This document shows, piece after piece, positions 1,742-38,187 of a stretch of 64,000 bases of DNA. Numbering within the stretch: the first letter of the stretch is position 1; each line of letters opens with the position of its first letter. Where the stretch lies: assembly GCF_037975245.1 (NCBI RefSeq), contig NC_092562.1, forward strand, positions 13,820,501 to 13,884,500, written 5' to 3'. This stretch comes from Apostichopus japonicus. Taxonomy: Eukaryota > Echinodermata > Holothuroidea > Aspidochirotida > Stichopodidae. A program made the position numbers and the translations under genes. The notes beneath the pieces are model-generated. The model was given only the letters and a program-made list of their open reading frames with translations, ran no database searches and was not told the origin of the DNA.

Positions 1742-4700
1742 CATGGGCGGCGATCATGGGGGGGGACGGGGGGAACATGTCCCCCCAATATTTTAGGTGG
1801 GGGATATAGTATCTAATATCCCCCCCAATATTTGATGGCATAGTTTTTTTTAAGCATATGTTTTGTATTATTTTATGATATCGAAGTAATTTCAAAATAG
1901 AAAATGCTTAGATGCAACTTACAAGGCCTTGGAAGTGCCATTTCCAGCGATCTGGGGGGCATTTTCGGCCAAAATTTTCTTTTGCGCTTCGCGCCAACTT
2001 ATGGTGGCGCTACAATTAGAAAGTTTGGGAACAAGCTTTGCCCCTCCCTTGGCAAATTCGTCGCAAGGCGCCTGTCTAACCATGTCACAATTTGTTACTT
2101 TATATGACCGAAAGTAGTTTTTACTTTTTTCTCTCGAAATGAATAGCTAGACGGACTGCATCCGTAATGAAATTTGGTTTGCATCTTGTGTATGAGTTAA
2201 GCCAAGAGCCTGTCCCATATGATTTCACCCCATTTAGCCCAGAAGGTTTGACCCCTTAAAGTTACTTAGACCATCTAGGTCATTCACAAAAAAATTGTCA
2301 GCTCAACCCCAGTGGTCGGGTTCGGACCCCAGACCCCCTGAAAAAGACCCCCCGGGCGGGTTAATTTCACCCCATCTAGCCCATGGACCAAACTTTGGCA
2401 AAAGGAAGTAGCATGGTAGTATGTTACAAAAATGGAAAAACTGACAAACTTGTTGGTCGGGAAGGTGATGTCAGACCCCCACAAAGTTTACCCTGACCCA
2501 CCCCCCAAAAGGCGGGTTGATTTCACCCCATCTAGCCCATGGACCAAACTTTGTCAGAAGGAAGTAGTATGGCTGTGCATTACAAAAAAGGCAAAACTGA
2601 CAAAATTCCTGGTCGGGAAGGGGTTGTCAGACCCCCCACTAAGTCACCCCAGTCGGGTTGATTTCACCCCATCTAGCCCATGGATCAAACTTTGTCAGAA
2701 GGAAGTAGTATGGCTGTACATTACAAAAAAGGCAAAACTGACACAATTCCTGGTCGGGAAGGGGTTGTCAGACCCCCCACTAAGTCACCCCCAGTCGGGT
2801 TGATTTCACCCCATCTAGCCCATGGACCAAACTTTGGCAAAACCAAACTTTGTCAAAAGTTAGTAGTATGGATGTACATTACAAAAAGTAAAACTGACAA
2901 AATTCCCAGTCGGGGAGGTGTTGTCAGACCCCAACAAATGTCACCCTCACCCACTCCAAAAGGTGGGTTGATTTCACCCCATCTTAGTCCACAGACTTAA
3001 CTTTGTCGAAAGGAATAAGTATGTCTGTACATTAAAATAAAGGAAAATCTGACAAAATTGCTGGTCGGGAAGGGGTTTTCAGACCCCCCCAAAAGGTGCC
3101 CCCACCCAGCCAATTCAATTCACGCAATCTAATCATAGACCAGAATTTTGTTTAAAGAAAGTATTCAAGACATTGTATTATAAAACATGGAAAAACTTAC
3201 CAAATGGTCTGAAAGCAAAGATGTACCCATTCTGGTCACATGGGCCACTTTTGTATTTGTGTAACATAATATATACCGTAAAAGCAAGAAATGGATACAT
3301 GTAGAACCAGGAACAAATGTTAAATATGAAAAGTTTTTACACTTGTAAAGCAGATTCCTTTGCATGAAAAATGTAGAAAATAACAACATGCTTTCAACAG
3401 GACCAGTCCCAGTTCATGTTGGTAGAATAAGTTTGCTTGTTCAACATGGTTGTTTGGACTGGCAATTACCATACTTGTGTCTTCAATATGACAAACAGTC
3501 ATGGAAAACTATAATAATTATTATTTAACAAGATAATTTAATTTAGGAAATACCATCCACAAAAGAGGAAATAGTTACAGCTAGAACCCCACCAAACACT
3601 GCATTTGAACAAACATGGCGAATGTGGCCTCACTCAGTTTTAAGGCCCTTCTGTTATTGGGCACAATGCGATTTAAAGGTTTTAAAATACAAATGGTTAT
3701 TCTTAAAAGTCTATATTGTCTTTTTGATTAGTTCCTATGATACAGTACGTCTCTGTCATTGTTCACCATCAGGTCACTTGCATAATTCTGTTGTGTCCAT
3801 CTTATCAATCCACCTCTTTTGCAAATATTTTAAGTAAAGTGTGATTTGTAAACAAATTGCTAAGGTAAAGCTTACCAGTTACAGGATTTTCGACAGATAA
3901 ACCGCAGTTATGAAGCCCCGATCAAGATTGATTTGCCAAATTTGGGTTCAAAATGTGAAAATTATTAGATATAAAAATAAAGGGAAATCCAGATATCTGA
4001 TTTTTCAGAAATTTGTCAGTTTTGCCTTTTTTGTAATGTACCGCCATACTACTTCCTTATGACAAAGTTTGGTCCATGGGCTAGATAGGGTGAAATTAAC
4101 CCGACTGGGGGTGACTTAGTGGGGGGTCTGACAACCCTTTCCCAACCAGGAATTTTGTCAGTTTTGCCTTTTTTGTAATATACAGCCATACTACTTCCTT
4201 CTGACAAAGTTTGGTCCATGGGCTAGATGGGGTGAAATTAACCCGTCCGGGGGGTATTTTTCAGGGGGTCTGGGGTCCGAACCCGACCACTGGGGTTAAG
4301 CTGACAATTTTTTTGTGAATGACCTAGATGGTCTAAGTAACTTTAAGGGGTCAAACCTTCTGGGCTAAATGGGGTGAAATCATATGTGACAGGCTCCCAG
4401 ACTAAGTACGTACAATCATACATATGATCCACATCGATATGGGTTCACTGGGTTTCCATTTGGCCTGTTTCCTACAAGATTTCTAACTGCAGGTGCGTAG
4501 CCAAGGGAAGGGGGGGATGAAGGGTGGAGACCGCCCTCCCCATGGAGCATATTTTTTTATGATATTTTCTAAGATATCGAAGTTTTATAGTAACAGTTAT
4601 AAGAGGTTTTAATATTTGTACACCAATAATTTAACTGTGTCTGAATTTTCAAAAATTCCTTGACCAACATTCTTCATCATACTTCCCTCTACTCGTGCAA

Positions 4701-11214: not shown

Positions 11215-11610
11215 TATTACTAATAATAATAATAATACACAGTTCTTATAAAGCACAAATACACACTTAAGTCTCAGTGCGCTGATTATTATTAACCCCT
11301 GGTCATTGGTAACTTGTCACACCCACACACCAAAGTGTGCACAATTCAATCAATCTCTCCTGGGGCACCACAGTGCACCACAACCATGTGTCCCCCCGGG
11401 GACTTCCCATAGGGTGCAGCCACAAACCGGCGCACGCAACTATATTTACAAGTTACCTCGCAGGTCCCCATTTATACACCTGGGTGAAGAGAGGCAATGG
11501 AGATAAAGCGCCTTGCCCAAGGACACAACGCAATGATCTGGCCAGGGCTCGAACCTGTAATCCTTAGATCACAAGTCCACTGCCTTAACCACTTGACCAC
11601 ACGGCCCTAC
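11215..11610 (-). mobile_element. tRNA-derived SINE
   Basis: On the minus strand the head reads as a tRNA-like promoter. The A box is TGGTCAAGTGG (plus coordinates 11589-11599) and the B box GGTTCGAGCCC (11545-11555), at normal tRNA spacing. A body of about 300 bp follows, including CCTTGGGCAAGGCGCTTTA, a block common in invertebrate SINEs. It ends in an ATT-type microsatellite tail (TAATAATAATAATAAT on the plus strand, 11221-11236). The body and tail rule out a free-standing tRNA gene. It is inserted between the arms of the surrounding foldback element. Confidence 0.8.
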
Positions 11611-11760: not shown

Positions 11761-12882
11761 ATTATCATATGATATCATATTATCAGCAGATTTTTTTCCT
11801 GTTTGAATTCTTTTACATGTTCTTTTACATATTATATCAGAAAGACAAACATAGTTCTCTTTATAATTTCTCCAGTAGGATGACTCTTGTTTATTGTCCA
11901 ATGTCTGGACTTTAAAGCCGCATTTTGCGTCTTTTTTTTCTCTCAACCTCAATGAATCCGCAATGATAACGACATACATAACTAGCTTATCTATTCAAAT
12001 CTTACTTCAAATGGTGGCATTAAAGTCGAAAAATTTAAAACTTTCAACTGTTTTGTTTTTCTCGAAGATATTTTTTCGTTGGGATCCAAATAAACCTCGC
12101 CCATAATATGAATATTTAAAAGCTACAAACGTCATTGGCCAATACGTAATACAACACTATGCTTGATTTGTGTATGATTGTCTATGGCAGTTGTTCCAGG
12201 GAGTTGTTAGAGTCCAGCTCGGTTGTACCAAGTTACCAACTCGACGTTCATTGCCAACAGCCTATTGTTGATAGTTGTTAACATTGGCGGCGATATCATC
12301 AACATTTTAGGGGGGACGAGCAAACCCGTGTCTGATTAATATTCTCAACATGCGAAAAATGTTGATCGGCGTCCCGGGGAGAGTAGTGGTGTATACAGGG
12401 TCTTGAGACATGGTTGGGGTGGGTGGGTAGGAGGGGGACTCATAAGCCTATGGAAGAATTTCACTTTAGGAAGGGGGGCATGACGTTCTTTGCCCAAAAT
12501 TTCCAAAACCTTGCCCGAAAAATGGAAGCGTCACCATAGGTTGATGCTACGGGTATTTTTTGAAAAAAATACCTGTCACATTACCGAAAACCAGAAACAT
12601 TTTTGTGCGTTTGTGCTACAAAATGTACAAAAGTTCGGAAGTTAAATTATTTTAAAATTTATTATGAGGAAATTGTGTCAAATGTTACGGGCTGGAGGTT
12701 AAAAGTTGACCCCTAATTAACTTCGGTCTCGCGGAACTTCGGTCTAGCGGAACTTCTGTCTCGTGGAACTTCGGTCTCCCGAACTTTTTTTTTAATTTCG
12801 GTCTTGCGGACTTTCGGTCTCGCGGACCTTTTTATTTTCGATCTCGCGGACCTTCGGTCTCATGGACTGTAATCAGCTCATG

Positions 12883-20590: not shown

Positions 20591-23500
20591 AGCCTGTCCC
20601 ATATGATTTCACCCCATTTAGCCCAGAAGGTTTGACCCCTTAAAGTTACTTAGACCATCTAGGTCATTCACAAAAAAATTGTCAGCTCAACCCCAGTGGT
20701 CGGGTTCGGACCCCAGACCCCCTGAAAAATAACCCCCCGGACGGGTTAATTTCACCCCATCTAGCCCATGGACCAAACTTTGTCAGAAGGAAGTAGTATG
20801 GCTGTACATTACAAAAAAGGCAAAACTGACAAATTTCCTGGTTTGGAAGGGGTTGTCAGACCCCCCACTAAGTCACCCCCAGTCGGGTTGATTTCACCCC
20901 ATCTAGCCCATGGACCAAACTTTGTCAGAAGGAAGTAGTATGGCTGTACATTACAAAAGAGGCAAAACTGACAAAATTCCTGGTCGGGAAAGGGTTGTCA
21001 GACCCCCCACTAGGTCACCCCAGTCGGGTTGATTTCACCCCATCTAGCCCATGGACCAAACTTTTGCAATACCAAACTTTGTCAAAAGGTAGTAGTATGG
21101 ATGTACATTACAAAAAAGGCAAAACTGACAAATTTCCTGGTTGGGAAGGGGTTGTCAGACCCCCCACTAAGTCACCCCCAGTCGGGTTGATTTCACCCCA
21201 TCTAGCGACCAAACTTTGTCAGAAGGAAGTAGTATGGCTGTACATTACAAAAGAGGCAAAACTGACAAAATTCCTGGTCGGGAAAGGGTTGTCAGACCCC
21301 CCACTAGGTCACCCCAGTCGGGTTGATTTCACCCCATCTAGCCCATGGACCAAACTTTTGCAATACCAAACTTTGTCAAAAGGTAGTAGTATGGATGTAC
21401 ATTACAAAAAGTGTAAAACTGACAAAATTCCTGGTCAGAAAGGGGTTGTCAGACCCCCCACTAAGTCACCCCCAGTAGGGTTGATTTCATCCCATCTAGC
21501 CCATGGACCAAACTTTGTCAAAAGGAAGTAGTATTGATGTACATTACAAAAAGTGTAAAACTGGCAAAATTCCTAGTCGGGAAGGTGTTGTCAGACCCCC
21601 ACAAAGGTCACCCTCACCCAACCCCAAAAGGCGAGTTCATTTCACCCCTTCTAGCCCATAGACCAAATTTTGTCAAAAGAAGGTAGTATGTCTGTACGTT
21701 AAAAAAAAGGAATATCTGACAAAATTGCTGTTCAGAAGGGGTTGTCAGACCCCTACAAAGAGCCCCTACCCAGTGTCTTTTACCCATGAACTGAGATGAT
21801 AAACATATAAACATAATTATTACAAAAATAAATAATTAATGATTATATTTATGAGAGGAGATATTCTATGTAATTCAAAAGAGCCTTCAATGTCCATTAT
21901 GGCTTGCCTTTCTTAATTGCTTCATCTTTTTTGGTGACAAGCAGTCCAAAGTTGCTAGGCAAGGAAGTGACTGAAACACAATGATGCTCCTGTTTTTGGT
22001 CAGTTTAAAACATTTTGATTTTTTTTTACTATAGCACCTAAGTAAAAATTATGGGTAGGCATCCCTGGCCTAATAAACATACTGATATAGATGAGAATCT
22101 TGTGGGAGGAGTTTCTCCTGCCTTTTGCTGGAAATGTTTTAATTCATAAGACAATACATTGACCCTCTTTGTCTTATGTCTGTATTACTGTACAACCTTG
22201 CCCACATCCTGTTATGTGACCATAGTTGGTCCTCCACTTTCACCAAATTGCTCTATTCCCATGTTTTATTCATGTAAAAAATAAGACCTGCTATAGTTAA
22301 TGGCCTGCAACCCAGTTATCTGCTTGGTCCCATAATATATGGTGTTACAGCAGAGGTGGAACAAAAAAATATTGGGGACCCTTTGGCATATTAGATATCA
22401 TTATTGGAACATTCTTCTAATTTCTGAAGCCTTTTCAAATAGTTATAGATATGACAGGTATATAATTGGTTAATCAAAGAAGTTTATTTGGGGGGGGGGA
22501 GGCTTGACCACTCAATTATATTATTGAAGCTGCCCCCCCCCCTCCCCTGCTTCAGCTGTTTTTGTGTAACGAATGCATACTTTCCTTGTGCAATTGTTTT
22601 CATTTCATTTTTGGCATTTCCTTAAATATATATCCTATGGGTTAGATTTCTATAGTAGCTCACATTGTACTATTGCAACCAATAATTAAGTACTCATATT
22701 GTTTCTTTTTAAACCTACAATTGGTAACATATGCCAGTATAAAGATTATTTGGTTGAAATCAAGGAATATTTACAAAATCTGGAAGTTTAATTTGATTTA
22801 CATCATAGGTGAAAAGGCAGTATTCGCCCCCCCCCCCACAAAAAAAAAAAAAAAAAAAAACCAAGAGCATATTTCAACTATTTGATCTGTATTTAGTGTC
22901 TGATTTAGGGGGTGTTGTGGCGGGTGTACCCTTCCCCTTTCAGACCACCCCAAAAAAGTTGTGTTCCAGACGAGAATGCTGGAAAATAAGTGCATTATTC
23001 AAATCGTGCAGACACTACTTGTCTGAAAAATCAGATATCTGGATTTCCCTTTATTTTTATATCTAATAATTTTCACATTTTGAACCCAAATTTGGCAAAT
23101 CAATCTTGATCGGGGCTTCATAACTGCGGTTTATCTGTCGAAAATCCTGTAACTGGTAAGCTTTACCTTCCGAAAACCCCTTCCCGACCAGCAATTTTGT
23201 CAGATTTTCCTTTATTTTAATGTACAGACATACTAATTCCTTTCGACAAAGTTAAGTCTGTGGGCTAAGATGGGGTGAAATCAACCTGCCTTTTGGAGTG
23301 GGTGAGGGTGACATTTGTTGGGGTCTGACAACACCTCCCCGACAGGGAATTTTGTCAGTTTTACTTTTTGTAATGTACATCCATACTACTAACTTTTGAC
23401 AAAGTTTGGTTTTGCCAAAGTTTGGTCCATGGGCTAGATGGGGTGAAATCAACCCGACTGGGGGTAACCTAGTGGGGGGTCTGACAACCCCTTCCTGACC

Positions 23501-24187
23501 AGGAATTTTGTCAGTTTTGCCTTTTTTGTAATGTACAGCCATACTACTTCCTTCTGACAAAGTTTGATCCATGGGCTAGATGGGGTGAAATCAACCCGAC
23601 TGGGGTGACTTAGTGGGGGGTCTGACAACCCCTTCCCGACCAGGAATTTTGTCAGTTTTGCCTTTTTTGTAATGTACAGCCATACTACTTCCTTCTGACA
23701 AAGTTTGGTCCATGGGCTAGATGGGGTGAAATCAACCCGCCTTTTGGGGGGTGGGTCAGGGTTAACTTTGTGGGGGTCTGACATCACCTTCCCGACCAAC
23801 AAGTTTGTCAGTTTTTCCATTTTTGTAACATACTACCATGCTACTTCCTTTTGCCAAAGTTTGGTCCATGGGCTAGATGGGGTGAAATCAACCCGACTGG
23901 GGGTGACTTAGTGGGGTGTCTGACAACCCCTTCCCGACCAGGAATTTTGTCAGTTTTGCCTTTTTTGTAATGTACAACCATACTACTTCCTTCTGACAAA
24001 GTTTGGTCCATGGGCTAGATGGGGTGAAATTAACCTGCCCGGGGGGTCTTTTTCAGGGGGTCTGGGGTCCGAACCCGACCACTGGGGTTGAGCTGACAAT
24101 TTTTTTGTGAATGACCTAGATGGTCTAAGTAACTTTAAGGGGTCAAACCTTCTGGGCTAAATGGGGTGAAATCATATGGGACAGGCT
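20591..24187. mobile_element. foldback element with tandemly repeated arms, copy 2
   Basis: AGCCTGTCCCATATGATTT at 20591 returns inverted at 24168-24187. The left arm (to about 21780) has seven or eight units of about 140-145 bp, and the right arm (23168-24187) about five or six inverted units. Unit landmarks are CCATGGACCAAACTTTG, AAGGAAGTAGTATGGC and GGTTGTCAGACCCCCC. The ~150-bp core (23020-23168) is shared with copy 1 but sits in the opposite orientation. Unlike copy 1, the extra interior sequence (21780-23020) lies between the left arm and the core. Long open frames (178 codons at 20995-21531; 123 codons on minus at 23449-23820) come from a unit length near 141 bp, which is 47 codons. 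Confidence 0.8.
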
Positions 24188-26245
24188 TTTGGCCTATTTG
24201 GGTTTAATTGTTATTTCAAAATTTCATCAATGTGAAGGTGTGACATTGCAAAGAAATAAAAGACAATTTGGTTTCCTTGTGAGGTTATTTTACAATAAAA
24301 TGCATAATTGGACTTAACTTACAGAAAATATTTATCATTACAGGCCTTACAAGTAGTTTGTGTCAGTGAAGTTACTTGGTGCATTCAAACTATCCATGGG
24401 AAAGGCAATTCTAGTATGAACAGGAAATTTTCCCATTTGGTAGTTATAATGTAGACAACAGTATACTCCCATCTTATAAGGAAGAAACCATGGAAATAGT
24501 GCACTTGTTTTCTTTGGAACTTCGAAAGGAATGTATCAGATTTCATTTATAAACATGCCTTACAGCCAGATTGAACTCTCATGAATTCACTGTGTATAGT
24601 CATTACAAGAAGACCATAGGCCTATGTGAGAGCTGGATGGGATCATATGTCTTGCTACTGGGAACAGTCACTAGAGAGGAGGAATGCATATGGTATCACT
24701 ACAAGCATGTACTGTAACCCATTTGCACAGTGATAAAGCTTATGCATTTGGAAAGAGTCTGCATAGAGAAAATTCATGCTCTGTCCAGGGAGTTGTTATG
24801 GACAACTCCCTGGTTAGACCAGTAGTCTCATTTTATTCACAACAAATGGGCACTTTATGAATAAACCATTTACTTTTTTGGGGGGTCATGTTGGGGGGAG
24901 GGTTTCTTTTAGTTTTGACTTCAAAGGTTTGTTAACTGCCAGGTACATTGTATTACTGTAGCGCTTCCATGGTATTAGCACATACAGTCTGCTTTATAGA
25001 TAGTCAAGTTATCTGATTAAAATGTGAAACTCTCAGTACAGTCTAAAGAAGAGAAGTTTATTTCACTGGTAGCATTGTATCAGACCTTAAATGTTTTGGT
25101 TCCTTGTATATCATATTTATTAACGGGGTCACAGCCTCACAGGGTCAAATGTGTGAATATGCAAATTGTAGAACTGCAAATTTAAGTTAGATTTTAACAG
25201 GTACATTACATGATGGTTATATTAAACTTGGTATCATGCATATTACTATTACAGAACTTGAGAAACCACAGTGGTTATTAACCTTTAACACACGGCTAAG
25301 TACCGTTGTCTTTGAGATATTGCTGCTCTTGTTGTTTTATCTTATTTGTTTTTTGAGTTAGTCATAAACTAACATTTTTTGTCAAGTTTTGCATTTCCAC
25401 GGTAACTCACATTAATTTTTGATGTTTTTCGTCTTCTCTTTGTACCATATATTGTACTAACACAACATTACTTCTTCTATAGTAGTTACCACAATGCTGA
25501 CGGCATACCTAAGTAAAAAAAAAAAAAAAAAAATCAAAAATTTGCTTCATGTAGATTGTATAGGGAAAATTGAGTCGGTAACTCACGTACATATCTAAAA
25601 GTGCCAAAACTGGTAAACAAATTTTACTTAAAAAGTGTCCTCATACTAAGTGAACTCTAAGACAAGTGAAATTTGGTAGTTATACCTTACGTACTATAGT
25701 AAACATATAGGTTGCCAAAAAATTCCTATATCATTGTCCAGTTGCATAAAAATGATGCAAGACACGGTAACTCACGTTACAATTTGTCCACGCATAACAG
25801 TTAATAAAAAATAAGTTGCTGACACAATTCAATCTTACTAACTTTTATGTAACAGTTTCAAGCTTTAATAAAATTACTTCTTGTGTTCACTTTGTAACAC
25901 AGTGTAACTGTTATTAACTTATTTGCAGTTTCATATTATGTAGGAATCACTGCAGTGCTCCATATCATTCAACAGTAGAGCCAATGAACAGTGGAGGAAA
26001 TGGCCAAAACAATTGACATCAATGATAAAGTTTGTTAAATTGCAAGTGGCGAGGTTAAATAGGCCCTGTGATAGTATTGAGGAATATTTCATGTTGGATG
26101 TATCTATATGGTTATGGGTTACTATGTCTAACACTGTCTAACAGCATTAGCAGCCCCCGTTTCTTATATCTGGCCTAGCTTAATGTACCAAAATCAAAAT
26201 TCCTTTTAGCATACGAAAGGGTTAAATTGTAAGACATTTACACGC
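24188..26245. other. mostly unique non-coding stretch
   Basis: No gene is supported. It contains a small hairpin (24786-24812), a G-rich patch near 24880-24900, a poly-A run at about 25515-25533, and the first three copies of the GGTAACTCACGTTAC word (25401-25780). Confidence 0.4.
24786..24812. repeat. 27-bp hairpin of the CAGGGAG type
   Basis: The arms CAGGGAGTTGT and ACAACTCCCTG pair perfectly across a 5-base loop (TATGG). The ends match the two hairpin elements at 36901 and 36991. Here the flanks show no target duplication; GTC and GAC extend the palindrome imperfectly. A single arm (CAGGGAGTTGTTAG) also occurs at 12197 without a partner. Confidence 0.6.
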
Positions 26246-34720: not shown

Positions 34721-36892
34721 TATTTTGCTTCATTTTCCCCTGTAACACAAAGAGTACAATGTTTTCACATTTGTTATTATGGTTATTATTAGTTATCACT
34801 TGTTTGTATTTGCTATTATCAGTTATTTTGGTTTTTATTGAACATAATTGAATATATAATTGAAATATATTTAACATGTGTGCAAAGTAGTTACCACTTC
34901 TTTAATGCTTTGTTGTCATCTTTCTATCTCTCAAATGTGTTGAGCTGCTAAGCTATTAATGTTAATTCAAGATTCACTTTGCAACACTGTGTTTGCAACA
35001 CTGTAAAAGTGTTTAATGTAACAAAGTTAACTGTTATTATTTCTATGTGGTTTTCTGAGTCTAAAACAATTTTGCAGCCGCTCCATTTCTGAACCTTTTA
35101 TTCTGAAACTAGTACTATGTATTTATGATGAAGCAAAAAGAAGTTACTATTTGGAGTTGATAAATCTGTTCTTTTCTATGACTCTTACACGGTTTTAGGG
35201 ATCAAATGGCCCAAATCGGGCTCAAACACAGTCTTCATGAACAATATGTGTAACTTCATTTCTATGGTTACTCAAACACATGTTTACCTGCTCGACTTCA
35301 GTTGCCCAATCAGATCACATGAACAACTGAAACAAATGTCTACAGGTCATCTGTACACATGGATTATCTGTGAATTCCTCAAATTGCTTTCTGGGATAGC
35401 TGACGCATTTGTATCATGCAACCGGTGTCAATGCTCAACCTCGTAATATTTCAACCAAGTTAGTGTACAAAATGTTAAAACGAAGTGTACTGACAGTATA
35501 AATTGAAACATTTCATCATATGGGCTATTTTTAAAAAGTGTGCTTATATTTTTTGCCCCTAACTCCTAAATAATTCATCAGGGCAATGCAGTGTTTGCAA
35601 TTCCCATATCTGGCTGTGCAATCCCACAAAGAACATTTGTCTGCTGAGGAAATGCCCGAACTCTTTTCTTGCATATATGCAATTACTTAATGAGCAACTG
35701 ATCCACTTGTTCATTAGCCTATATACACATAAAATTTTTTGAAAATTGATCAGTCACACAGAAATACGTCTTAGAAGAAAAGAAGCTTGTTTACATATCT
35801 TCTAGTATGGTTAGAAAATTAGACCTCGTTTCTTTAAAATTGGCAACACAATACTTAAGTTCAAGACATAATTAGGTGTAATAACTTTCCCATTCTGAAA
35901 TACTGTCCAAACTAGTAATGGAGAAACATTTGCAGGAATTTAATGTCTCATAAATGATAACAAGACTGAAGTGAACAAAGCTTTTCAAGAAGACAATTAC
36001 ATTTACAGCACAACATGAGACTGATGATAAATAACGTTCAGTGATTTTGTATTATAGAATATTGAGAATCTGCAGCAATTGCTACTATGTTTCCATAAAT
36101 TGTTTAACAGTCCCATTCAGGGTTTGCCAAATTTAAACTTTGACCATCCCAGTTTATTGCACTGAAATGTCAGTGAAAATAACACATTTCTGTGCATTTT
36201 TCATATCAATAGTCATTAGCTTTATTGAGTTATCTGTCGTTAAAAATGCTGAACTGAATAAATGCTGCCATAATTTTTAAGGAGGGTGTAGATTCTACAA
36301 ACTTCGATCAATATATGCAAGTCCCGCCAAACAGATCACCGGCCAATCAAATCTCTCTGTGTTGTTTATGACCGTTATAAACCTAGGCCTTTACTATCAC
36401 TTTCATGTTTAAGCTGTTCCTTTTCTTGAAAGGTATCTTTCTATCGGTTTTACCGATGTAGCTTGCAAATTGTGTAATTTGCTTCCATTGCAATGAATAC
36501 GCAGGTGATTTCAGACGTTTCCTCCGTGGAATTTAAAATAGTGTTCGATACGAATGGGACTGCATTGAAGACTATTTTGTTTACATTTGTGTAATGAACC
36601 TTACTAAAATAGGCAGTCGCAGTGATATTAGGGTAAATCGATACCGCCATAAGGGCAACAGAAATATTTCTTTCGATTGTGACAGCTTTTCTCCATATAC
36701 CCACCTGGTCAGAGTGAATTTAGGTTAACAAACATTGAATCTACTTCGGAAGTTTGTTTTCAGAAATTCATAAGCAAACTGTGAATTGGACTTTTATTTG
36801 ATATTACCAATTGTAAGCCTGAATTGAAATACGATAGGCATGCAGATAGATAATACTGTTCAGTAAAATTAATTCCCAGAGAAAAGTTGTTT
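34721..36892. other. mostly unique non-coding stretch
   Basis: Two open frames were considered: 69 codons (+, 35237-35446) and 84 codons (-, 36450-36704). The minus frame has fairly even codon use and a possible splice junction near 36705, but no domain. I do not support either as a gene. Confidence 0.4.
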
Positions 36893-36900
36893 GACACAAG

Positions 36901-36927
36901 CAGGGAGCTGCTAGTAGCAGCTCCCTG
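36901..36927. mobile_element. 27-bp perfect hairpin with target duplication
   Basis: The arms CAGGGAGCTGCTA and TAGCAGCTCCCTG are perfect 13-bp inverted repeats around a single G. ACACAAG flanks both sides (36894-36900 and 36928-36934). With one base shared with the palindrome, the duplication is 8 bp (GACACAAG). The ends CAGGG...CCCTG and the duplication length match hAT transposition. Nothing lies between the arms, so it may be the footprint-sized remnant of a MITE or an extremely small mobile unit. Confidence 0.7.
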
Positions 36928-36990
36928 ACACAAGTACTGTCCACTGCCACACAGTAATACCTAATAAAGTAAAACATGATACCCTCCCAC

Positions 36991-37022
36991 CAGGGAGCTG
37001 CTACTCTAACAGCAGCTCCCTG
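36991..37022. mobile_element. 32-bp hairpin with target duplication
   Basis: The arms CAGGGAGCTGCT and AGCAGCTCCCTG are perfect 12-bp inverted repeats around the 8-base loop ACTCTAAC. CTCCCAC flanks both sides (36984-36990 and 37023-37029), extending to 8 bp (CTCCCACC) with one base of overlap. It is the second such unit within 100 bp, with a different target sequence, so it is an independent insertion. Confidence 0.7.
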
Positions 37023-37030
37023 CTCCCACC

Positions 37031-38187
37031 CTCACCCTTCTGCCAATCAAGGTAGGCCATGTGTAGTTAATTGAATCCCCTTGCCTACTGAAATAAAGGA
37101 CTGAAGTCTTTGTGTTTCAGCTAATAAAAGACCTTGGCAGAAAGCTAATCCACCATGAAAGGGTCAATTACTTCCCCTAAGGCAGCTTTAATTGCTGTGT
37201 GTCCTTATGTGAGGACATTGCTACCTTCTATATGTGCAATATCAACAAACTGAGTTAAGCCACAAATTTGATTGTAACTTTGTGACTCTTTCAGCTCAAA
37301 CTTTTGAATGCCATAAGTTCTATAGGATCTCTGATTGGTCCTTCCTTGGTAGGCATGTACAGGGCAAACAAATGAGAACAGGGGATTCATGAAATAAGAA
37401 GAATGCAGTATCGTTGTGAAGAACTCATCACCCCCAGTACCACTGTGGATACTGTTGATAGGCTTGTTTTACATGCAATTTTTAAGCACATTTCTAGTTA
37501 TTAACTCTCACTATTTATTCCCATAGCTACTTTCAGATGAAATTGTTAATACTGGTGGATCGTGGGGGCCACGAGGGGGCTTAGCATACTAAAAAACTAC
37601 CAAATTTATAGAAAATTCAAAACTCTCTTAAATGCAGCAACTTTCCAAGGGGGAAGGATTGTCCCCTTCTCTGAGACCCCTCTTCAGGACCACGGGTAGA
37701 TACCCCCCACCCCCGCCCTCCCGAGGGCAATCAAAATAACTTAAAAAGAATTTTGATTTTGGACTTAACATATTACCAGTTTGCATGTAGGAACCCTGAA
37801 AATTATTTCTTAAACAGTTCGGGGGGGGGGGGGGGGGTTCCTGCCCCTATGCCCCTCTACCAGTACCTGATCACTATCACTTCATTTTGGTCTTTTCCAA
37901 ACGTGAATTCTGGAACCACTGATACCAGGAGCCCTATTAGAAGTGGCCCAATAAATGGGGATTGTGATTATAAAGGAGGCAGTGAGGCCTTGGCCCCAAC
38001 ACTGGTCGGTTGAGGGAAAATCACTTTCAACAGTTGGATAAAAAATATTCACCGGTGGAGGAGGGGGGAGCATGGGCTGAGGTAATTATTTTCTGGATAT
38101 TCGATTTCATATTCCGCATTACAAACACAACCATTCCCAACGATCTAATTTGCCAAATTTAATGGGTGGAAATTATGCCCCGCCAAA
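37031..38187. other. mostly unique non-coding stretch
   Basis: It holds a G17 run (37821-37837) beside a C-rich block typical of transposon edges in this window, and another C-rich patch near 37705-37725. The open frame at 37753-38013 spans the G-run and is not credible. Confidence 0.4.
37821..37837. repeat. poly-G tract
   Basis: Seventeen consecutive G. Its neighbourhood (CCTGCCCCTATGCCCCTC) resembles the G/C-run edges of hAT-like elements, but no terminal repeat could be identified. Confidence 0.8.

Follow-up and report, generated by a model that had tools for sequence, protein, structure and literature searches.

One of the strand cuts of P transposase falls 17 nt inside the terminal inverted repeat (TIR), and the enzyme has internal binding sites besides the termini, as described in PMC7776569. 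The Drosophila P repair junctions in Table 1 of PMC2895639 read as target site duplication (TSD), up to 17 nt of each TIR, and TSD again, with trimming, AT/TA microhomologies, short fillers and an occasional deletion past the TSD. TSDs of 8 bp are found in the P element and in zebrafish Pdre2; those of Galileo, also of the P superfamily, are of 7 bp with a few of 8, and follow the consensus GTANTAC (PMC4168063, PMC2775673). P-type footprints are already known from experiments; in the open-licence literature we found no description of large natural sets of them, or of the cut position of lost families read from such sets.

The hairpins reported here fall into two families, F1 and F2, and we refer to them as scars for the reading that we favour. 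Their layout of TSD-arm-arm-TSD, with trimming, microhomology and fillers, is that of the Drosophila melanogaster P junctions described in PMC2895639 and PMC7776569, but those junctions are experimental, come from one element and have an 8-bp TSD, whereas the present ones are natural, have a 7-bp TSD and have arms that run to 19-20 nt. With Galileo they share the 7-bp TSD, and their target motif resembles its palindromic GT...AC target (PMC4168063, PMC2775673); Galileo differs in being placed by its transposase and in having whole and partial elements with long TIRs, whereas F1 and F2 are known from their putative scars alone.

Hairpins of the window and their carrier repeat

The window is the whole 64-kb stretch analysed, C2:13820501-13884500 of an assembly of 671.6 Mb in 35 contigs. 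The original prediction described two hairpins of 27 and 32 bp at 36893-37030, each bordered by its own direct repeat, and we found both in place with exact 7-bp TSDs, as follows.

36500 to 37400, no strand assigned: carrier repeat in which both hairpins lie (the query, not the repeat, sets these limits); 14 or more full-length matches at 98-100%, the window among them
36894 to 36900, plus strand: left TSD copy ACACAAG (7 bp), an exact match to the right copy
36901 to 36927, plus strand: putative excision scar 1 of family F1, 27 bp, with CAGGGAGCTGCTACTCTAAC arms and the centre lost
36928 to 36934, plus strand: right TSD copy ACACAAG
36984 to 36990, plus strand: left TSD copy CTCCCAC (7 bp), an exact match to the right copy
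36991 to 37022, plus strand: putative excision scar 2 of family F1, 32 bp, with a full 20-nt arm and 12 nt of the other arm
37023 to 37029, plus strand: right TSD copy CTCCCAC

A scan of the 64 kb that asked for arms of 10 bp or more, a spacer no longer than 20 and an exact 7-bp TSD returned this pair and nothing else, and the same arm, spacer and TSD criteria gave no hairpin in 12 of 12 Markov-1 simulated windows. We read the TSDs as 7 bp, and take the further base that would have made them 8 bp by overlap to be a chance match. Rfam gave no match at the gathering threshold at the hairpin site.

A 901-base query around the pair matched at full length, at 98-100%, in at least 14 places including the window, a lower bound obtained from scoring 40 of 971 candidates. 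Three other copies of the pair (L030, L035 and L041) carry both hairpins with the identical two TSDs. With so many near-identical carrier copies, the proposal of two separate insertions 63 bp apart fails as a description of events at this locus. Each insertion most simply occurred once, in an ancestor of the carrier repeat, and the two scars of the window would have come in as passengers of this larger repeat. As passengers they need no function, and none was seen.

Two further places in the window carry related units.

24786 to 24812, plus strand: putative scar of the sister family F2, arm CAGGGAGTTGTTATGGAAC, with flanks CTCTGTC and GTTAGAC that agree at 3/7
12197 to 12221, plus strand: degraded F2-like scar of 25 bp, between GTTGTTC (12190-12196) and GTTGTAC (12222-12228)

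The third hairpin, at 24786, had been assigned to the same family as the pair; it is real, but belongs to the sister family (CAGGGAGTTGT...), and its flanks agree poorly. What had been taken for a lone arm at 12197 proved to be the degraded unit listed above, between near-identical 7-mers. Six related repeat copies (L066, L068, L069, L075, L076 and L140) hold a 25-bp F2 scar at this target, some with mismatches, and the window copy (12190-12228) holds a 25-bp unit with the same start as theirs and a different remainder. Perhaps this repeat spread with the transposon still inside and its copies lost it independently. Scars also stand side by side, with a shared or nearly shared flank, in L062 (69-127), in L113 and in the window (24779-24819), and the identity of the F2 scar of the window with L062 ends just past the right flank.

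Elsewhere in the window, more than a third of the sequence (39405-63629) is a long stretch that resembles satellite DNA, with units of 74 bp and of about 376 bp. A similar tandem unit of 142/156 bp recurs at four places (2350-3094, 4008-4272, 20734-21753 and 23416-24035), and in the region of this unit one frame is open for 219 codons (20872-21531). On the minus strand at 11534-11606 there is a tRNA match of 29.2 bits against a family cut-off of 29, perhaps a SINE head or a relic.

Target duplications, arms and joints across the genome

Both families are dispersed through the genome. The F1 hairpin pattern CAGGGAGCTGCT N0-20 AGCAGCTCCCTG occurs 261 times and its reversed form 0 times, and the F2 pattern CAGGGAGTT N0-24 AACTCCCTG 1,974 times against 1; the 20-nt F1 arm CAGGGAGCTGCTACTCTAAC occurs 381 times and the F2 arm CAGGGAGTTGTTATGGAAC 1,186 times, each with 0 occurrences reversed, all of these being counts of copies rather than events, because many copies were inherited inside larger repeats. 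The 40-bp F1 forms are two CAGGGAGCTGCTACTCTAAC copies head to head. The other F1 forms listed or read have bases missing or changed at the joint, and a few of them repeat an arm.

We read 60 F1 loci (from C1-C7) and 20 F2 loci (from C1), taken as the first places listed and therefore non-random. In 20 F1 loci from the hairpin list, 17 of 23 hairpins had an exact 7-bp TSD, six of these 17 being copies of the window pair. Two recognisable arms were present in 52 of the 60 F1 loci, giving 60 rows and, after merging of equal flanks, 41, among which four tandem or nested loci appear in more than one reading. Of these rows, 21 had an exact 7-bp TSD, 5 agreed at 6/7 and 15 at 5/7 or less; 2000 draws of a swapped-flank control gave 9 exact matches and 45 near ones. 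For F2, 18 of the 20 loci gave 20 rows and 16 after the same merging (8 exact, 3 at 6/7, 5 at 5/7 or less), against 33 exact and 56 near in 2000 draws. Among the loci read, most copies thus have a flanking duplication, at 6/7 or better in 26 of 41 F1 rows and 11 of 16 F2 rows, and the predicted dispersed family with its own target duplications is borne out by dispersed hairpins that lie between differing TSDs.

The single-arm loci (8 of 60 for F1 and 2 of 20 for F2) stand outside this count; in one of them, L009, 4 bases of the second arm are followed by a perfect TSD. An empty target is also visible, as the repeat copy L023 has one ATCTCAG and L072 has ATCTCAG-scar-ATCTCAG. When 28 TSDs (26 distinct) were symmetrised, the motif showed T2/A6 at 82% and G1/C7 at 46%, with weak positions 3 and 5. 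Their mean match to the Galileo consensus GTANTAC was 3.04 of 6, compared to 1.63 for random 7-mers of the window.

The units consist of two arms and a joint, with no interior. Arms stop at nt 20 in the F1 loci read, where the 40-bp units are two full arms, and at nt 19 in F2, limits that are partly circular because the scars themselves served to define the arms and a full arm was a criterion in the choice of many loci. Among the 26 flank-unique F1 units with a TSD of 6/7 or better there are 16 different sequences and 11 lengths, from 27 to 59 bp, and the arms overlap by 1-2 bases in 13, meet flush in 6 and are joined with fillers or repeated arms in 7. The F2 joints have a 3-base overlap in 9 of 11 units with a TSD of 6/7 or better, at loci picked for one full arm: the 3′-terminal AAC of the 19-nt arm lies on either of two internal GTTs of the other arm, which is then of 9 or 12 nt. 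These two AAC/GTT forms also make up 17 of 50 listed hairpins in the F2 hairpin list, which was not picked by arm (counted by eye, some being repeat copies).

At L028 the single arm ends in ...AAC and the sequence resumes at an AAC further along the target repeat, with 13-14 nt of flank lost; the arm is absent from all 10 related copies displayed, six of them aligned. Single-arm loci look like joins that run into the flank. Separately, at three loci (L010 201-259, L025 201-248 and L013 373-439) the arm occurs as a tandem of two or three copies whose junctions read ...CTAACAGGGAG..., with the same 19-base step at three different targets, which simple end joining does not explain.

A P element of the same genome and the search for F1 and F2 elements

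A PF21787 profile search of the genome gave 45 P-transposase matches, and P49 provides a reference for the hairpins.

C13:12995314-13003493: P49 (L049), 8,180 bp, with TIR, 8-bp TSD and P-transposase domains

Both ends of the P49 TIR, CACTGATCTACACTAACTGGATAGG..., are identical across the 30 nt compared, and the 8-bp TSD is ACTGCGCG. Its two long frames match PF12017, PF21787, PF21788 and PF21789; no THAP domain was seen in the two frames scanned. By its predicted transposase domains, its TIR and its 8-bp TSD, P49 is a member of the P superfamily. The 25-nt end has 42 exact copies, 32 of which form 16 inward pairs, 15 of them spanning 2-9 kb (by eye).

P49 ends also occur as hairpins, 31 in the genome and 0 for the reversed pattern, under a search that takes spacers up to 20 nt and totals up to 42 nt and would miss longer remnants. 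We read 21 of them in 20 loci: 16 have an exact 8-bp TSD (13 different), one agrees at 7/8 and four at less. None of these 21 scars has an arm past nt 18 of the 30-nt TIR, and as nt 18 is a T that the joint can supply, a true 18th nucleotide and a chance match look alike. P49 is the one test of an arm limit against an intact TIR, and the arms stop though the TIR runs on, so bona fide P ends occur in this genome as hairpins limited to about 17 nt, like the cut of the P element. These hairpins show many joints, with intact parents present. They are like those of F1 and F2 in lying between target duplications and in arms that end in ...AAC, and differ in the 8-bp TSD, the 17-nt (at most 18) arms, the TIR CACTGATCTACACTAACTGG... 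and the presence of intact copies. All three arms share this terminus (...CTAAC in P49, ...CTAAC in F1 and ...GGAAC in F2), and the AAC may mark the internal cut. One P49 scar is separated by 27 bp from an exact P49 end (G000, C17:4698755-4698839), and at L083 the 8-bp TSD of a P49 scar fits only when five additional bases, CACTG, which copy the element end, are set aside.

Elements still carrying F1 or F2 ends were sought at 22 P-transposase loci read wide (10 of 8-10 kb and 12 of about 8 kb), which cover 23 of the 45 PF21787 matches. F1 or F2 ends facing inward around the transposase were found in 0 of the 22; L051-L053, L055 and L140 have F2-like arms or scars within them or close by. Any CA...TG inverted repeat with a TSD of 7 or 8 bp was sought in 8 of the 10 and 12 of the 12 loci, and nothing convincing emerged beyond P49. 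A P-transposase fragment at L143 is flanked by a 7/7 TSD and an 11/14 TIR, which we treat as chance-level after so many comparisons. CAGGGAGTTGTT, considered as the TIR of L051 and L052, proved to be an F2 scar inside a shared repeat. These two loci are 98%-identical P-transposase repeats on different contigs, and the F2-like scar stands in their shared stretch (near 2019 in L051 and near 2014 in L052); as it is common to both, F2 probably once entered and then left that repeat.

Pairing of the arms gave a similar result. Among 72 and 31 listed arms the sole close inward pair, 6.56 kb apart on C14, was rejected as an intact F1 element, being two separate scars with no frame of more than 180 codons between them. 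No inward pair of 0.1-15 kb was seen by eye among the first 100 F1-arm places, the first 100 F2-arm places and 58 more listed, and one F2 arm pair lies 20.6 kb apart (C2:15691879 and 15712475). The single-arm loci were also considered as a source of element interior and set aside, as their flanks are repeats: L028 has copies without the arm, and the copies of L027 differ around the arms. We take the stretches flanking both as target repeats with one-sided deletions. Neither the 22 P loci nor the arms listed and paired, which are part of the 381 F1 and 1,186 F2 occurrences, thus yielded an intact F1 or F2 element. Among the literature matches listed for the F1 and F2 arm sequences, none concerns transposons by its title.

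Probable origin of the hairpins and what they may record

Taken together, the TSDs, the arm limits and the diversity of the joints argue that the hairpins are most likely scars of an excised P-superfamily transposon and not mobile micro-elements. A DNA transposon with the TIR CAGGGAGCTGCTACTCTAAC... (F1), and a sister with CAGGGAGTTGTTATGGAAC... (F2), would have inserted with a 7-bp TSD and later left. Of the two strands, the transposase would have cut one at the element end and the second within the TIR, at a distance of 20 nt in F1 and 19 nt in F2, and each donor end would keep a 3′ overhang that is the terminus of the element itself. Two identical overhangs could then be end-joined with trimming and microhomology, presumably in a polymerase-theta-like manner, into TSD-arm-arm-TSD, a hairpin with a variable centre. 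Membership of F1 and F2 in the P superfamily is what we infer, since the loci and arms searched gave no intact element with these ends, and Galileo comes closest among the known members in the length of its TSD and in its target motif.

An origin of the F1 and F2 scars in another superfamily, hAT or undescribed, with a long staggered cut, seems to us unlikely, and it is the alternative that best survives. The start CAGGG is also common in hAT elements, no P transposase was tied to F1 or F2 ends in the 22 loci, and neither the 7-bp TSD nor the 19-20-nt arm has the value seen in the P element (8 bp and 17 nt). hAT elements, however, have 8-bp TSDs and leave footprints of a few bases, whereas the TSD of F1 and F2 is 7 bp. 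The scars that P49 makes in this same genome are of the same kind. A cut far inside the end is described for P in PMC7776569, where it is called unusual, and the TSD has the length, and resembles the motif, of the Galileo targets described in PMC4168063. The earlier suggestion of ends left by a larger hAT-like MITE came close in having a larger element depart; the 7-bp TSD and the sharp limit at 19-20 nt speak for P-type cleavage rather than hAT.

Could the hairpins themselves be mobile, each a minimal transposon that consists of two inverted repeats and is moved by a transposase acting in trans? The copies are dispersed with different TSDs and some middles recur, such as the 29-bp and 40-bp forms at several sites, yet we regard this as very improbable. 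One conserved sequence is not what we found: the 26 F1 units with a TSD comprise 16 sequences that differ at the joint, as would be expected of repair joints but not of copies of one mobile unit, and this does not support the original prediction of an element made of its inverted repeats alone. Where a middle recurs, it is often one to be expected from microhomology (TA/TA in F1 and AAC/GTT in F2), the P49 hairpins also have many joints with intact parents at hand, and such a unit leaves no room for the internal binding sites of P transposase as described in PMC7776569. MITEs are likewise short and dispersed, with inverted repeats and a TSD; the hairpins differ in having no interior or fixed middle, and would be products of leaving, not arriving.

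We give just as little credence to an origin by abortive gap repair instead of end joining, in which internal deletion would have reduced MITE-like elements to their ends. This would agree with the two arms that remain and with the internally deleted copies that P elements do yield (PMC7776569), but it should leave remnants of many lengths beyond nt 17-20, whereas 0 of 21 P49 scars, among hairpins of up to 42 nt, has an arm past nt 18 of the 30-nt TIR. One-sided loss, moreover, extends into the flank at L028. The chance that these are accidental palindromes, a structural RNA or a protein-binding repeat is negligible given the 261 F1 and 1,974 F2 hairpins, where the reversed patterns yield 0 and 1, and a fixed TSD length, and the TSD statistics contradict it.

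Returning to excision as the source of the scars, we see about an even chance that F1 and F2 are 'ghost' lineages of the P superfamily, gone from the genome and known only from their scars, with cuts 20 and 19 nt inside the TIR and 7-bp target cuts. If so, the superfamily would not have a constant stagger of 17 nt, and sequence alone would reveal the stagger at nucleotide resolution, even for vanished elements.

To our knowledge, most transposons leave few bases or nothing on excision, and for this reason excision is usually studied with reporters. P-type scars can keep 30-40 bp, in which target duplication, cut position and repair joint are held together. Short palindromic repeats with TSDs should accordingly not be annotated at once as the smallest mobile elements. 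The more than 2,000 such hairpins, counting copies inherited within repeats, amount to a natural repair assay of cut geometry across several families, from which the rules of microhomology in germline end joining can be read and vanished transposons detected.
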